Below are positions 1,035 to 9,900 of a stretch of DNA of 64,000 nt, piece after piece. The translations under genes and the position numbers were made by a program. This DNA comes from Bacteroidia bacterium. Its GTDB lineage: Bacteria; Bacteroidota; Bacteroidia; JADZBD01. Under the pieces are notes generated by a model. That model saw only the letters and a program-made list of their open reading frames with translations. It searched no databases and had not been told where the DNA came from. The number at the start of each line of letters is the position of its first letter. Within the stretch, counting starts at the first letter, position 1. The DNA lies in contig JADZBD010000002.1 of assembly GCA_020852255.1 (NCBI GenBank), forward strand, positions 471,531-535,530, written 5' to 3'.

Positions 1035-1817
1035 TTATTTGCAAAGGAAGGACGGGTTGCGGAGATTCTCCCGGTTATAGCGAAGGGGCTGCATGGTTTC
1101 AAGGCTGTATACTTCCTTCCCCACCGCCATTACAAGCGCATGACCGGCAGCGGTATCCCACTCCATGGTGGGGCCAAAGCGTGGATATTCATCAGCGAGC
1201 CCTTCCGCCACGAATGCAAATTTCATTGAACTTCCTCCGGTGATGGTTGCCATTCCCGGCATCCCTGCGGCTTTTTCCTGCAAATAGGATTCTGTTTCGG
1301 AACCGCGGTGCGAACGTGACGCTACAACGGTATACGGGCGTGAACCGGAAGAAACGGGCAAAGCGATCCCATCTCCGGTATTCCTGAAATCTGCAGCCCC
1401 TACCTTTCGGGCTCCCAAGGCCGGTCCTCCGTAATAAATTTTTTCCGTGACCGGTGCATAAATAACACCGGCAAGGGGAATGCCGTTTTCTACCAATGCG
1501 ATATTCACTGTAAACTCTCCGTTGCGGCGCACAAATTCCTTTGTTCCGTCCAGCGGATCCACAATCCAGCAGCGCGTCCATTTCCGGCGAACGGTATATT
1601 CTTCGGCCGGTGTTTCCTCATCCAGAAAAGGGATACCGGCTGATTGCAAACACCTGCGGATGATCGTGCCGGAGCGCTTATCTGCTTCAGTTACCGGACT
1701 CCGGTCCTCCTTCATCTCCACCTTAAAACTGGTAGCATATACACGCATAATTTCTATTCCTGCCTCCACCGAGGCAAGAATAGCTCGCCGTGTGAGTTCG
1801 GCGATGTCAGTAGGCAT
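1035..1817 (-). CDS. cysQ: 3'(2'),5'-bisphosphate nucleotidase CysQ
   Basis: Inositol-monophosphatase-superfamily phosphatase that removes the 3'-phosphate of PAP (and PAPS), preventing build-up of a by-product of sulfate activation and sulfotransfer. Visible motifs are TEAD (residues 43-46), the acidic pair EE (67-68), the signature DPLDGTKEF (87-95), GGSSMKF near 200 and MEWDTAAGHAL near 220, all metal- or substrate-binding elements of the family. The length of 260 residues is normal. Its start overlaps the end of deoC by 11 bases, so the two are probably co-transcribed from the deoC promoter. The sulfate-activation genes cysC-cysD-cysN lie about 1.1 kb away on the opposite strand, which fits a PAP-recycling role. 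Confidence 0.93.
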   Translation of the reverse strand: MPTDIAELTRRAILASVEAGIEIMRVYATSFKVEMKEDRSPVTEADKRSGTIIRRCLQSAGIPFLDEETPAEEYTVRRKWTRCWIVDPLDGTKEFVRRNGEFTVNIALVENGIPLAGVIYAPVTEKIYYGGPALGARKVGAADFRNTGDGIALPVSSGSRPYTVVASRSHRGSETESYLQEKAAGMPGMATITGGSSMKFAFVAEGLADEYPRFGPTMEWDTAAGHALVMAVGKEVYSLETMQPLRYNRENLRNPSFLCK

Positions 1818-2763: not shown

Positions 2764-2794
2764 TTTTGCACTCTCGGCGAATTCCATACCTTTG
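2764..2794 (+). promoter_or_regulatory. Promoter of the sulfate-activation operon
   Basis: A -33 element TTTTG (2764-2768) and a -7 element TACCTTTG (2787-2794) are separated by 18 bases, close to the Bacteroidota pattern TTTG/TAnnTTTG. The predicted transcription start is about 2799-2802, at the leader-peptide ATG. Confidence 0.7.
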
Positions 2795-2801
2795 TGCCAT
2801 T

Positions 2802-2867
2802 ATGAAAAAGACCAATGCCATCGCTCGCCATTCCTGCAGCTGTTGCTGTATGATGCATGCCTGCTGA
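2802..2867 (+). CDS. Cys/Met-rich leader peptide of cysCDN (21 aa)
   Basis: A 21-codon reading frame, ATG 2802 to TGA 2865-2867, ends in SCSCCCMMHAC, so five Cys and two internal Met fall within its last ten residues. It sits directly behind a consensus promoter and is followed 29 bases later by an intrinsic terminator, then cysC. The basic N-terminus (MKKTNAIARH) lacks any signal peptide. The arrangement matches classical attenuator leader peptides, whose regulatory codons specify the end product of the operon, here cysteine and possibly methionine. The start codon lies about where transcription should begin, so the leader is probably translated from a leaderless mRNA. A structural role such as metal binding is the alternative but explains neither the terminator nor the position. 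Expression is unproven. Confidence 0.75.
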   Translation: MKKTNAIARHSCSCCCMMHAC

Positions 2868-2930
2868 ACGGGAAGTCTTTGTCCTAACTGATACAGAACC
2901 CTTCCCGAAACGAGAAGGGTTTTTTATTTT
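2831..2930 (+). promoter_or_regulatory. Predicted transcription attenuator of cysCDN
   Basis: Four mutually exclusive segments can be read. Segment 1 (2831-2840, TTCCTGCAGC) lies on the Cys codons and can pair with segment 2 (GCTG 2863-2866 and GGAA 2871-2874). Segment 2 (CGGGAAG 2869-2875) pairs perfectly with CTTCCCG at 2901-2907 as an antiterminator. That pairing consumes CTTC (2901-2904) of the terminator 5' arm. A ribosome stalled on the Cys codons at 2835-2849 would leave segment 2 free and allow readthrough. A ribosome at the stop codon would cover segment 2 and permit termination. Pairings were found by eye; energies were not computed. Confidence 0.65.
2897..2930 (+). terminator. Intrinsic terminator of the attenuator
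   Basis: Arms AACCCTTC (2897-2904) and GAAGGGTT (2914-2921) form an 8-bp stem, possibly extended by two CG pairs inside the loop, followed by TTTTATTTT (2922-2930). It lies between the leader peptide and cysC (ATG 2952), so it can only serve to abort transcription of the operon. Confidence 0.85.
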
Positions 2931-2951: not shown

Positions 2952-3551
2952 ATGAGTAAGAATATCTTTCCAACTGATACTATTCTGGGCCGTGAAGCAA
3001 AAGAACGCCTGCTGAACCAGCGGGGAACCGTAATTTGGATGACGGGGCTGAGCGGCTCAGGGAAAACCACTATTGCCACAGAGCTTGAAAAGTGTCTGAA
3101 TGAGAAAAAAAAGCTCACACAAGTTCTTGACGGGGATAATATCCGTAGCGGTATCAACAGAAACCTGGGATTTTCGGAAGAGGACCGCGTTGAAAACATT
3201 CGCAGAATATCAGAAGTGGCCAAATTATTCTGCCATGCAGGGCTGATCACGATCTGTTGTTTTGTTTCACCCACACGCGCTATCCGTGAACAGGCAAAAA
3301 GTATCATCGGCGAAGAGGATTTTACAGAAGTTTTTGTAGACACTCCTCTTGAAATTTGCGAAAAGAGAGATGTGAAAGGACTGTATGCCAAGGCGCGCAA
3401 AGGGGAGATCGCAGATTTTACCGGTATTTCTTCTCCCTTCGAAGCACCGGAAAATCCTGACCTGCACCTGCATACTCAGGGCCATTCCGCCAGGGAGTGC
3501 GCTGCACTCATTCTGAAAGAACTTGAACACAGAAAATTACTCAGCATATGA
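2952..3551 (+). CDS. cysC: Adenylylsulfate kinase CysC
   Basis: Phosphorylates adenosine 5'-phosphosulfate (APS) to PAPS with ATP, in the cytoplasm. The P-loop is GLSGSGKTT (residues 32-40). DGDNIRSGINRNLGFSEEDR (60-79) is the APS-binding signature of the family, and GLYAKARKGEI and FTGISSPFEAPENPD are typical C-terminal elements. The length of 199 residues is normal for a stand-alone kinase. It is the first structural gene behind the Cys-rich leader and terminator. Its stop overlaps the cysD start (ATGA), so translation is probably coupled. Confidence 0.97.
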   Translation: MSKNIFPTDTILGREAKERLLNQRGTVIWMTGLSGSGKTTIATELEKCLNEKKKLTQVLDGDNIRSGINRNLGFSEEDRVENIRRISEVAKLFCHAGLITICCFVSPTRAIREQAKSIIGEEDFTEVFVDTPLEICEKRDVKGLYAKARKGEIADFTGISSPFEAPENPDLHLHTQGHSARECAALILKELEHRKLLSI

Positions 3552-4453
3552 ACAAGCGTCATTTAAAACACCTTGAAGAACTGGAGTCGGAATCTATTTA
3601 TGTAATACGTGAAGTAGCCGCACAGTTTGAGAAGCCAGCCCTTTTATTCTCCGGAGGCAAAGACAGCATTGTCTGCTTTCACCTCGCCCGCAAGGCTTTC
3701 TTCCCGGCACGCGTTCCTTTTCCGCTGGTGCATATTGACACCGGGCATAACTTCGGTGAAACACTGTTGTTTCGTGACGAACTTGTAAAAAAGCACGCGG
3801 TGAGTCTCGTTATTGGCTCGGTACAGGAAAGCATAGACACCGGGCGCGTTACGGAAGAAAAAGGATACAACGCCAGCAGAAACGCACTGCAGACTGTGAC
3901 CTTACTGGACACGATTGAAAAATATAAGTTTGATGCATGTATCGGGGGTGCCAGAAGGGATGAAGAAAAAGCCAGAGCCAAGGAGCGGTTTTTCTCACAC
4001 CGTGACGAATTCGGGCAGTGGGACCCCCGGAATCAGCGCCCCGAGCTCTGGAATATCTTCAATGGGAAGAAAAACATTGGAGAACACTTCAGGGTGTTTC
4101 CTATCAGCAACTGGACGGAGATGGACGTTTGGCAGTACATCCTGAAAGAAAAGATTGAAATTCCAAGTATCTATTTCACACATGAACGCGATACATTTAC
4201 CCGAGACGGAGTGATTTATGCCTACTCCGATTGCATTTTACTCAAACCTTCAGAAAAAGTGGAGCGCAGACAGGTTCGTTTCCGCACAATCGGCGATATG
4301 ACCTGTACAGGTGCGGTTGTTTCCCGGGCCAGCAGTCTGGAGGAAATTGTTCAGGAGGTGGCTGCAACGCGTGTTACCGAACGGGGTAGCCGCATAGATG
4401 ATAAAAGAAGTGAGGCGGCTATGGAAGACCGGAAAAAAGCCGGATACTTTTAA
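3548..4453 (+). CDS. cysD: Sulfate adenylyltransferase subunit 2 CysD
   Basis: Catalytic subunit of ATP sulfurylase, which forms APS from ATP and sulfate with the GTPase CysN. It is an adenine-nucleotide alpha-hydrolase-like enzyme with the PP-loop SGGKDS at residues 35-40. ARRDEEKARAKERFFSHRD and the C-terminal stretch of a basic, Arg-rich helix are typical of CysD. The length of 301 residues is normal. The ATG overlaps the cysC stop by four bases and the gene is followed after 22 bases by cysN. Confidence 0.97.
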   Translation: MNKRHLKHLEELESESIYVIREVAAQFEKPALLFSGGKDSIVCFHLARKAFFPARVPFPLVHIDTGHNFGETLLFRDELVKKHAVSLVIGSVQESIDTGRVTEEKGYNASRNALQTVTLLDTIEKYKFDACIGGARRDEEKARAKERFFSHRDEFGQWDPRNQRPELWNIFNGKKNIGEHFRVFPISNWTEMDVWQYILKEKIEIPSIYFTHERDTFTRDGVIYAYSDCILLKPSEKVERRQVRFRTIGDMTCTGAVVSRASSLEEIVQEVAATRVTERGSRIDDKRSEAAMEDRKKAGYF

Positions 4454-4475
4454 ATAAAAAATAAGAAATAGATTG

Positions 4476-5744
4476 ATGAAAAAAGATTCGTATTTAGAAA
4501 TGGACTTATTAAGATTCACTACGGCCGGTTCAGTAGATGATGGGAAGAGTACTTTGATCGGAAGATTATTGTATGATTCAAAATCAATCTTTGAAGACCA
4601 GTATGAATCCATCAGAGCCACCAGTGAAAAGCGCGGAGAAGAATATGTAAACCTGGCACTTCTGACAGACGGATTACGCGCAGAAAGGGAACAGGGTATT
4701 ACGATTGATGTTGCCTACCGCTACTTTGCAACTCCAAAACGGAAATTCATTATTGCTGACACACCCGGGCATATCCAGTACACCCGGAATATGGTCACGG
4801 GTGCAAGTACCGCCAATGTGGCCATCATCCTGATTGATGCCCGGAAAGGCGTGATCGAGCAGACTAAACGACATTCCTACATCGCTTCTTTATTGGGCAT
4901 TCCTCATGTTTTTGTTTGTGTGAACAAAATGGACCTGGTGGATTACCGGGAGGATGTCTTTCACACCATCTGTAATGATTACGGGATCCTTGCAAAGAAT
5001 ATCGGCGTGAAAGACGTTCATTTTATTCCCATTTCCGCTCTGAAAGGGGATAATGTGGTGGATACGTCCCAAAACATGAACTGGTATAAAGGAACCACCT
5101 TACTTCATTTACTGGAATCTATTTCCATTGACTCAGATGTGAACCTGAACAGCTTCCGTTTTCCAGTCCAATATGTGATACGCCCGATGAGCAGCGAACA
5201 TCATGATTACCGCGGGTATGCAGGACGGATCGCAGGAGGAGTGATCCGAAAAGGGGATCCGGTGGTGGTGCTTCCCGGGGGCCGCACTACAAAGATTAAG
5301 AGTATAGACACGCTGAATGGCAGTCTTGACGCGGCCTTTGCACCCATGAGTGTGACGATTACCCTTGAAGATGAGATTGATATTTCCCGTGGAGACATGA
5401 TCGTAAGTGCTGCGGACGCACCTCCGGAAAATCAGGAATTTGAACTCATGGCCTGCTGGCTGGCGGATCGGGAACTTGTTCCCGGCAATAAATATGTGGT
5501 GAAACATACTTCCCGTGAAGTTCGCGCCGTGGTAAAGGAAATCGTTTATAAAGTAGATGTGAATACCCAGGATAAAATAGAAGGAGTCAGCAAAGCGCAC
5601 CTTAATGATATTGTGAAAATAAAATTAAAAACAACAGCTCCTCTGTTCTTTGATCCGTACCAAACAAACCGCAACACCGGATCGCTTATTCTGATTGATG
5701 AAGGAACGAATGTGACAGCGGGAGCCGGAATGATCCTGCACTAA
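4476..5744 (+). CDS. cysN: Sulfate adenylyltransferase subunit 1 CysN (GTPase)
   Basis: Regulatory GTPase subunit of ATP sulfurylase, whose GTP hydrolysis drives APS formation. It is an EF-Tu-like protein with P-loop GSVDDGKST (residues 18-26), DTPGH as the G3 box and NKMD as the G4 box, followed by beta-barrel domains. The protein has 422 residues and no fused APS kinase domain, consistent with the separate cysC. I start at ATG 4476; an in-frame TTG directly before it is less likely. The stop codon overlaps the stop of a convergent acetyltransferase gene, and no terminator is visible between them. Confidence 0.97.
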   Translation: MKKDSYLEMDLLRFTTAGSVDDGKSTLIGRLLYDSKSIFEDQYESIRATSEKRGEEYVNLALLTDGLRAEREQGITIDVAYRYFATPKRKFIIADTPGHIQYTRNMVTGASTANVAIILIDARKGVIEQTKRHSYIASLLGIPHVFVCVNKMDLVDYREDVFHTICNDYGILAKNIGVKDVHFIPISALKGDNVVDTSQNMNWYKGTTLLHLLESISIDSDVNLNSFRFPVQYVIRPMSSEHHDYRGYAGRIAGGVIRKGDPVVVLPGGRTTKIKSIDTLNGSLDAAFAPMSVTITLEDEIDISRGDMIVSAADAPPENQEFELMACWLADRELVPGNKYVVKHTSREVRAVVKEIVYKVDVNTQDKIEGVSKAHLNDIVKIKLKTTAPLFFDPYQTNRNTGSLILIDEGTNVTAGAGMILH

Positions 5745-6972: not shown

Positions 6973-9900
6973 TTACAAAGTAAACCTAAGAGCAATTCCG
7001 GCATTTGTATTGGAGGAATTGTAACTGGTAGAGATCACGGGTCGGGTGATCAGCTGGTCGTAGAACAGACGGATATTCAGGCGCTCGGAAATTACGTAAT
7101 CCGCCGAGGTTTTCACGGATAATACCAGCTGACCTGCCGTAGGCTGGGTTACATTTTCCACTATTTTTCTGAGAACGGTTACGTTTCTGCGGATGGATAG
7201 GTCCGCCTTGAGATTCAGGTCGCTTTTCAATGTCCGCTTCTTTGAATCCGTCTTGGACTTCTTCTTTTTCTTTCCGAACTGAATCTTCACATCCGGTATG
7301 CGGTAACCGGCTCCAATCACATATTCCTGACCGAAAATCTCCGTGACTTGTGAGCTGGTCAGACTGAGTGCAATGTTTCGGTCCTTTTTGATCTCAAAAT
7401 TCGCTGTAATCTTATTATTCATCGTTACGTCCACCTTGATCAGCGGTGAGAACTGTTCACTCAGGGTTATGGTGCTGATTTGTTCAGGGAGTATGAAATC
7501 GCCGGCGCTGTTGAAGGCATTGGGCAACCCCGTATTCGGATCCTCCGTGTAGTTCAGGTTCTGTACGTAGGAGAAGCTGTACGTAGAACGGTAGGCATGT
7601 GAAAGTGTAACGGTTTTAAACAGCTTTTGCAGGGCCTTTACCTTCGAAAGGCCATCGTAGGTGATCCGCCAGTTGGGCTTTGGAATAGTAGGGAACACAT
7701 TACGGCTGACTCCACCCGCATTATATCCTCCGTATCCCGCCAGAAAGGAGAACATCATCACCTGCTGCGAGGTGGCTCCGTATCCGTTGTAAAACCCGTT
7801 CGTTACCCCGGTGCTGTTTCCGTAGTCGCCTGCCAGGAGAGCCGACATCTCAGCGCGCATGTTTTTAAATTGAGTGAACGGGTCGTAGGAGAAATCCTTC
7901 TTCCCTAATTTTGAAAAAGCCGTACGCCAGGAAAGGAATGACATGGAAAAGTTACCTGCATGCGCTACATTTCGCTCCTCGAACATATCATCCAGCGGAT
8001 CAAAAACATAGAACATGGTCCGGTTCTTTGAATAATTCCTGTTGGCCGTGAATTCAATTTTAAAATTATTAATTGGTTCAACGTTTACCCTGCCGTTATA
8101 GTTAAGCGTATAGTTATTCAGGTATGCGGTATTATGATTCGCCGTAGTCATTAAGCCGGCTGAAGAAAGTTCTGTGTGAATATCGGGGTTCTGTCCGCCG
8201 AGTACAAAACCCAGCCCGGGCGAAAATGATTCCTGGTAAGGGGTCGTGGAAGCCATCCCGAAAAAGTTGGTGTTTTGCGTATATCCCGGAAGCGTTGTTC
8301 CCTGGTTATTTGTAACGGAGAATGATGCGTTACGAACCATCATCAGCGTACGGGCCAGGTAATCAAGAATCGTGATCTCGTTTTGATCTTTTTCCTTCTT
8401 TTTTGTAGTGTCTGCATTGGCCTTCGGCGGGGTCTTACCTCCCTTCCCGGTAGTGGGCTGCTGGGCATTTTTCTTCTGGAATTTAGCGTTAACCTTTTTG
8501 AAGTACTTCACCTTATTATAGAAGTTTACCATATTCATCTGGGTGTTCAGCGTCTTACCTTGTGTGTTCTGCAACACTCTTCCGAGGGTATCCGCTGCAA
8601 ACATTGGCCGTTCCCAGTTGAAAGAAGCAGAATATCCGGCATTCGCAGTGATCCAGTCGAAAATTGGAATTTTATTAATCGGAATGGTATAGTCCACCCG
8701 TGCCGTTTGATTGAAGGTTGTAGTAGTTCCGCCCCGCTTGATTTCGTTGCGTATAGTGTCTTTCTCCTGCTCATTATCAATCTTTCCGTCAGGTTCTCTG
8801 ATCTGCCCGGTATTGGTAGCGGAGTACTGCAATTTCAGGCCTTTGGTTATATCCCACCGCAGATCATAGGTCCGAAGTATACTAAAGCGCTTTTGGAAAG
8901 CCGTATCAATAGTCAGGTACTCTCCTGTGATATCCCTCAGCAGTCGTTCGGAGTAGTACCTGTTTACGTCCATGACAAAAGCGAAGCTGCTGGGATACAG
9001 ATTAAGATTGAACTCCCGTAACAGCGTCAGGTGCTTTGACCGGAATAACTTTTTCTTTTCGAGTGGTTTCCACGGTTTGGGCTGCGTATTAAAGTTATAG
9101 GTTATCCCACCCCGGTAATCTCTGGACAGATAATGCGCCACACTGTAATTGTGCTGGAAAATTTCGGAATAGGACAGGTTAAGGGCCAGATTTTCCACAT
9201 CATAGAAGTGTGTTTTCTTCTTGTCCTTCCCGCGTTCCTTTTTCACATTCGTGAGATTAATGCTCTTTCTACGGGTATAATCCTGTGCCGAATTGCGAAT
9301 GGAATCCTTATATGCGTCGGAAAATTCGGTATTGCTGTACACGTTGCTTAGTTCAATGTCAGGATCGTAAGGATTAAACTGCGGATTGATCCGGGTTTCA
9401 GAGAATCCATAATAGAGCGGCACACGGATATTCCATCCGGTCGGGAAAAACTTACCCAATTCCACCTGGGTAATGATATCGTATGACAGTACTGTCTCCT
9501 TTTTGCGCTCACTCACTTTCTTTTCAAGGCTGCCCCATCCCGGCGTGCTGATGTTTCCCGCCAGAGTAATACTTCCCAGATCAGCCAGTTTGGCGGTAAT
9601 GCGTCCGGTTGCCGCCCAGCCCCCAATCTCATCAAAATCAGTCAATCGCAGCTCATTCACCCATACTTCTGTACACTTACTGAGGCCATCGTCGCCATCG
9701 CCGGCAATCTTCTTCTTATTTCGCACACCAATCATTATGGTTTTGATTGTGCTGAGGTTGGGATTACCTTTCACGCGGATGAAACGGGTATTACCCTGCT
9801 CGTCCTGTATGGTCACCAGGTATTCAGTAGTAAGTGAAACGCCACTGGTGCTGATGGCCATTTTTGAATTGCGCTCCTGTTTGGCCGATTGCAGATCCGC

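Follow-up and report, generated by a model that had tools for sequence, protein, structure and literature searches.

Classical attenuators, such as those of the trp, his, phe, thr and ilv operons, consist of a short open reading frame (ORF) carrying codons for the end product, followed by mutually exclusive antiterminator and terminator structures and by an operon devoted to the same amino acid. The Cys/Met leaders described below share this organization. They differ from the classical cases in the residues sensed, proposed to be Cys and Met, in occurring in Bacteroidota, in being preceded by promoters of the TAnnTTTG type, in having predicted mRNAs that are nearly leaderless, in often being arranged as two modules in series, and in that the antiterminator arm lies in the reading frame in about half of them. 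The thr and ilv leaders sense mixed amino acids, as is proposed here for Cys/Met leaders.

Leaderless upstream ORFs (uORFs) with poly-Cys runs have been described in mycobacteria (Canestrari et al. 2020; candidates in PMC1262725). They are likewise Cys-rich, located at or near the mRNA 5' end and followed by cys operons. The actinobacterial Cys-rich leaders precede these operons without conserved terminators (PMC1262725), and those of mycobacteria act through translation attenuation (PMC13236596, citing Canestrari 2020). In contrast, the Bacteroidota modules possess intrinsic terminators that coevolve with antiterminators, and they are enriched in Met. The SAM riboswitch (S box, RF00162) also controls sulfur amino-acid genes by premature termination but, unlike the Cys/Met leaders, it relies on an aptamer and has no leader peptide.

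A broad survey published in 2010 listed Proteobacteria and Actinobacteria as the only groups with known leader peptides, and extended the range to Firmicutes (PMC2965389). In Bacteroidota, small ORFs reminiscent of leader peptides have been mentioned in B. thetaiotaomicron (PMC7366714). In Flavobacterium psychrophilum, which belongs to the same phylum, amino-acid operons are preceded by structured 5' regions, pheA and hisG elements among them, and strong clues for leader-peptide attenuation have been reported; Cys is not named, and the main text names neither a Cys/Met leader nor a sulfur operon (PMC9723704). A Cys/Met leader of the terminator-based, near-leaderless and often tandem form was not found for Bacteroidota in the open-licence full-text literature searched. 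A sequence-only reading of the locus studied here had suggested that control of this sort might be undescribed in the phylum. This calls for some qualification, since leader-peptide attenuation of unspecified nature has been noted in F. psychrophilum (PMC9723704). The kind of regulation is known, and it is the Cys/Met form that is new, as far as the literature was searched.

The window analysed is a stretch of 64,000 nucleotides from a Bacteroidia bacterium (contig JADZBD010000002.1). The same reading had placed a 21-codon Cys/Met-rich ORF between a promoter and a terminator, upstream of cysC-cysD-cysN, and all of this is confirmed in the sequence (Table 1). The peptide ends in SCSCCCMMHAC. 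Thus, the operon is preceded, as in an attenuator, by a short ORF enriched in end-product codons, and an intrinsic terminator separates this ORF from the first structural gene, cysC. The terminator stem has a folding energy of -12.7 kcal/mol (z -3.73), which none of 200 shuffled sequences equalled. A generic terminator scan did not call this structure, probably because its loop limit was 3-8 nt. The upstream gene (1807-2613) is encoded on the minus strand and so cannot be what the terminator serves. Rfam covariance models, that of the SAM riboswitch included, gave no match in the window; matches in 20 related loci were limited to RNase P, a tRNA and an unrelated SAM riboswitch. An inositol-monophosphatase-family gene (1035-1817, minus strand) adjoins cysCDN and may encode a PAP phosphatase similar to CysQ, which would complete the sulfur cluster.

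Table 1. Features of the cysCDN leader region (positions in the window) and of related loci (handles of genomes, G; loci, L; families, f)
Feature	Location	Strand	Remarks
-33 promoter element TTTG	2765..2768	+	from sequence; Bacteroidetes sigma-ABfr consensus TTTG/TANNTTTG (PMC6847099)
-7 promoter element TACCTTTG	2787..2794	+	from sequence; 18-nt spacer after TTTG
Leader peptide ORF MKKTNAIARHSCSCCCMMHAC	2802..2867	+	ATG 2802, TGA 2865-2867, 21 codons
Putative sensing codons of the leader ORF	2835..2864	+	Cys 2835, 2841, 2844, 2847, 2862; Met 2850, 2853
Antiterminator 5' arm CGGGAAG	2869..2875	+	directly 3' of the stop codon; folds of 2869-2938 and 2856-2917
Shared segment CTTCCCG	2901..2907	+	antiterminator 3' arm and part of terminator 5' arm and loop; folding
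Intrinsic terminator GAACCCTTC...GAAGGGTTTTTTATTTT	2896..2930	+	stem-loop 2896-2922, T-rich tract 2917-2930
cysC, adenylyl-sulfate kinase	2952..3551	+	first gene under the putative control; Pfam PF01583, TIGR00455
cysD, sulfate adenylyltransferase small subunit	3548..4453	+	TIGR02039 above cut-off
cysN, sulfate adenylyltransferase large subunit	4473..5744	+	TIGR02034 above cut-off; start codon uncertain
Twin Cys/Met leader and terminator, window's genome	G000:C4 ~115924-116216 (L116, L283)		ahead of the sulfite-reductase operon
His leader MNNQFHNHHHASYPKG, promoter box and terminator	L319 reverse complement 7726-7776 (G000:C2)		ahead of hisG-hisD-hisC-hisB
Tyr/Phe leader MNTNYFFLPYYYTRPGRGMERK, promoter box and terminator	L369 reverse complement 3244-3312 (G000:C9)		ahead of the DAHP synthase/chorismate mutase gene
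SAM riboswitch, only one found in the genome	G000:C2:461799-461910 (L378), ~10 kb upstream of the window	-	ahead of metH
Modules ahead of cysC	G001 (ICCMMCCN), L004/G395 (CCTMMCCMMCCI), L027/G417 (CTMCCCM), G245 (MMCCMMCCD)		
Further genomes with a module ahead of cysC	G313, G219, G334, G254, G172, G142, G038		
Leader counterparts, cysC loci	L003, L290-L294, L296, L301, L305-L307		
Tandem modules behind one promoter	L149 (G245), L150 (G001), L151 (G038), L198 (G192)	- or +	upstream of sulfite reductase
Leader-free sulfite-reductase loci	L212, L226, L246, L247, L249-L251, L253-L260, L263-L271 and similar		families f12, f15, f54, f68, f4 and others

The -7 box, of the Bacteroidota TAnnTTTG type, is separated from the leader ATG by 7 nt. 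Judging from sequence alone, the promoter belongs to the -33/-7 type of this phylum (PMC6847099) and not to the sigma-70 type; a sigma-70 scan of the window gave nothing above chance at the leader, and that model was rejected as the wrong promoter type for the phylum. Because the last G of the Bacteroidetes -7 box sits at -5 (PMC6847099), transcription is predicted to begin at about position 2799. The 5' untranslated region would then be only ~3 nt long and the leader mRNA nearly leaderless, which corrects the sequence-only reading.

That reading had also left the antiterminator arm (2869-2875) out of the regulatory region. The arm is fully complementary to the shared segment in the 5' half of the terminator, a pairing that reaches p 0.05 against shuffles in the duplex test. 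RNAs starting at 2848, 2854, 2857 or 2860, which model a ribosome on each of the first four Cys codons, and ending at 2917, adopt the antiterminator fold, with energies of -14.6 to -16.7 kcal/mol. An RNA from 2878 to 2930, modelling a ribosome at the stop codon, adopts the terminator fold. At equilibrium, the full-length RNA (from an A-site at 2835 to 2930) prefers the terminator even with the arm free, meaning that antitermination must be kinetic. When the full-length leader is folded untranslated, the start of the leader is engaged with the segment at the arm's end, and the terminator forms. In this module, as in most others, the predicted antiterminator and terminator exclude each other and the former would be reachable only on stalling, with the ribosome geometry less certain where the arm lies inside the ORF.

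It is very likely that the leader and its terminator constitute a ribosome-mediated transcription attenuator that senses Cys, and probably also Met, a reading that rests on no expression, ribosome-profiling or termination data. In the model, RNA polymerase would start almost at the leader AUG, with the ribosome trailing it through the leader. With ample Cys-tRNA (and probably Met-tRNA), the ribosome would reach the stop codon and mask the adjoining arm; the terminator would fold, and transcription would end ahead of cysC. When charged Cys-tRNA is scarce, the ribosome would stall at the Cys codons, the first of which is 34 nt 5' of the arm. The free arm could then pair with the shared segment before the 3' half of the terminator is synthesized, and the antiterminator so formed would let the polymerase continue into cysCDN. 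That the ribosome stalls, that Cys and Met are sensed and that readthrough changes in response are all inferences without bench data; the parts themselves are shown.

Their recurrence is shown as well. Comparable modules, with the same anatomy and a different sequence, lie ahead of cysCDN in 11 other genomes. No such leader was found at the cysC locus of three close relatives (L005-L007, 81-82% CysD identity), and many leader-positive genomes likewise lack one at cysD. A class-wide search with the DNA pattern ATGATGTGYTGY...TTTTTT matched 45 of 395 genomes, mostly by chance, and nevertheless pointed to two of the genomes with tandem modules (G245 and G038).

A pattern search of the window's own genome revealed a second leader, MNYTIHTILNKGMMCCMMCCCPRGMEMSC, with its promoter and terminator. 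The operon behind it encodes an NIR_SIR/HEPN sulfite reductase, a uroporphyrinogen-III methyltransferase (SUMT), a siroheme-synthase/TauE fusion, CysH and a homoserine dehydrogenase. This siroheme sulfite reductase is present in 93 of the 395 Bacteroidia genomes sampled. When 92 regions upstream of its gene were tested for a leader followed by a terminator, 60 matches were obtained on the sense strand and 2 on the antisense strand. At least one module precedes the gene in 40 of 88 class-sampled genomes, which belong to 16 of 25 families. A leader lies ahead of sulfite reductase in the cultured Chryseolinea lacunae Jin1 (L061/G441). Roughly half of the genomes that carry this sulfite reductase are without a Cys/Met leader there (Table 1). 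One match, 3.7 kb upstream of sulfite reductase (L243), lies inside a gene and was dropped as a false positive, and a minus-strand match from the cysC-locus search (L011) was dropped as well. The sequence-only reading would have been refuted had neither the Cys codons nor the terminator been conserved in relatives. This was looked for and the reading was not refuted, as the device recurs before both cysC and the sulfite-reductase operon. The interpretation as a sulfur-sensing attenuator is thus supported by comparative evidence from outside the window; in the absence of expression data, its physiology remains unproven.

Tandem pairs of modules occur in 16 of the 88 genomes, all among the 40 carriers. 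Of 55 first modules, 40 have the promoter box in front of them, compared with none of 17 second modules (one module, that of L243, is misclassified in this count), which indicates that both members of a pair are on one transcript. Over 41 leaders, the predicted 5' untranslated region has a median length of 7 nt. On these promoter positions, which are predictions, the modules have the hallmark of the mycobacterial type, a near-leaderless poly-Cys uORF before cys genes. Several tandem loci have an upstream module ending in MMCCMMC(I/A) and a downstream module with the sequence MCMCCMM..RMR, in which the antiterminator arm falls within the ORF. Two other loci carry poly-Cys leaders, ACCVCCCCC ahead of cysH-sir (L287 in G427; its stop codon is 806 nt 5' of sulfite reductase) and MCCCCCMCMC (L216 in G006). 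Their terminators are weak or borderline, and they are possibly variants of the device.

Coevolution of the antiterminator with the terminator is also shown. The stretch following the Cys cluster was paired with the 5' arm of the terminator in 72 modules. The best pairing averaged -13.6 kcal/mol, with a mean z of -2.74 relative to dinucleotide shuffles, and it reached p<=0.05 in 51 of them. In the remaining 21, including the sulfite-reductase module of the window's genome (p 0.185), it was not significant. When terminators were swapped between genomes, the mean fell to -9.7 kcal/mol (Wilcoxon P 1.2e-12). Since own terminators pair better than swapped ones, shared sequence alone does not account for the pairing, which is maintained by matched changes. 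Relatedness among the genomes means that the P value exaggerates how many independent events there were; the set also contains one likely false positive, the far-upstream L243, without material effect on the figures.

Two geometries are found. In 33 of 71 modules, that of the window among them, the arm starts within a few nucleotides of the stop codon; in the other 38 it is inside the ORF, at a median of 25 nt before its end. The arm search began after the last Cys codon, and the distance from Cys codons to arm is therefore partly set by the method. The stalled state is easily pictured for both geometries, whereas the state with ample Cys is simple only when the arm adjoins the stop codon. Masking by a ribosome at the stop codon does not apply to the 38 others; there, one has to assume that the arm would be covered by a moving ribosome coupled to the polymerase or by a protective upstream hairpin.

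Other putative attenuators are found in the same genome. A His leader and a Tyr/Phe leader, which served as positive controls, precede genes of the corresponding pathways, and attenuation thus appears to be a general habit of the lineage. The genes behind these leaders, and metH, were identified from their own sequences. In this genome, the last step of Met synthesis, metH, is behind a SAM riboswitch, and sulfate assimilation is behind leader peptides.

The amino-acid specificity of the leaders was assessed on ORFs followed by a terminator within 2 kb upstream of sulfite reductase, 198 sense and 152 antisense. At least three Cys within eight residues were found in 56 sense and 4 antisense ORFs, and at least three Met, by the same test, in 38 and 1. 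Most other residues showed no excess; that of Asn was weaker (25 sense against 3 antisense). Strong enrichment in terminator-linked leaders is thus limited to Cys and Met. A scan of 1.19 Mb of the window's genome (about 36% of it), on both strands, for a C/M leader plus terminator returned 6 matches. Two are the cysCDN leader and its sulfite-reductase twin; the remaining 4 fall in longer frames with no sulfur operon linked to them.

Four rival explanations deserve consideration. The one that survives best, a variant of the attenuator reading rather than an alternative to it, holds that the leader senses Cys only and that the Met codons are incidental, for instance alternative starts or coding constraints imposed by the RNA arms. 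In its favour, the window leader has five Cys and two internal Met, and some leaders are nearly devoid of Met (e.g. L287). Against it, Met enrichment is as specific as that of Cys, clusters of the MMCCMMC type recur, and the second sulfur operon includes homoserine dehydrogenase, an enzyme of the Met pathway. Sulfide and homoserine are the two precursors of methionine when it is made by direct sulfhydrylation. As the sulfite-reductase operon supplies both, dual sensing makes sense. We lean slightly against the Cys-only variant; sensing of both Cys and Met remains an inference, since the role of Met cannot be separated from that of Cys by sequence alone.

A second explanation is control at the level of translation, as in mycobacteria, where stalling on poly-Cys would act by uncovering the next gene's start, not by antitermination. 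Near-leaderless Cys-rich uORFs before sulfur genes are indeed common to both groups (PMC1262725; PMC13236596, citing Canestrari 2020). However, the Bacteroidota modules have strong intrinsic terminators and coevolving antiterminators and so lack the terminator-free arrangement expected of translational control. Moreover, Bacteroidota mRNAs are naturally without Shine-Dalgarno sites to mask (PMC6847099), and at tandem loci the first terminator is followed by a second module, not by a gene start. We regard this possibility as very unlikely. Also very unlikely is that the ORF encodes a functional small Cys-rich peptide (metal- or redox-binding, or the precursor of a modified peptide) and that the terminator merely ends its transcript. 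The Cys content is high and some leaders reach 30-40 residues, but length and sequence vary freely outside the Cys/Met cluster, the leaders accompany sulfur operons and are separated from the gene by a terminator, and the His and Phe/Tyr leaders of the same genome follow the same logic of codons for the end product. Finally, one could suppose that a Cys-rich ORF lies by chance next to an unrelated terminator that belongs to the upstream gene, and could invoke the abundance of small ORFs and the lack of a sigma-70 promoter above chance at the leader. This is all but ruled out: conservation contradicts it, with sense matches outnumbering antisense ones 60 to 2 and many families represented, and the upstream gene is on the minus strand.

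The preferred reading is thus that of transcription attenuators. Short leader ORFs of this kind are typically skipped by gene finders, and no Rfam family matched. As far as could be found, the control of sulfate assimilation in Bacteroidota is largely uncharacterized. The device needs no protein regulator and its signal can be predicted from the sequence, which makes it directly testable. If the reading is correct, a terminator-based Cys attenuator is widespread in one class and provides one of the few cases of a single leader reading two sulfur amino acids. A bolder interpretation, which the evidence favours by a small margin, is that of a sulfur regulon extending through much of the Bacteroidia, in which dual Cys/Met attenuators control the two halves of sulfate assimilation, cysCDN and the sulfite reductase-siroheme-cysH-homoserine dehydrogenase operon, with tandem pairs forming a two-step gate in many genomes. 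Serial attenuators are unusual, and they raise the quantitative question of whether their effects are additive, multiplicative or AND-like. If the gate exists, it could make the response to Cys and Met sharper or graded (AND-like).
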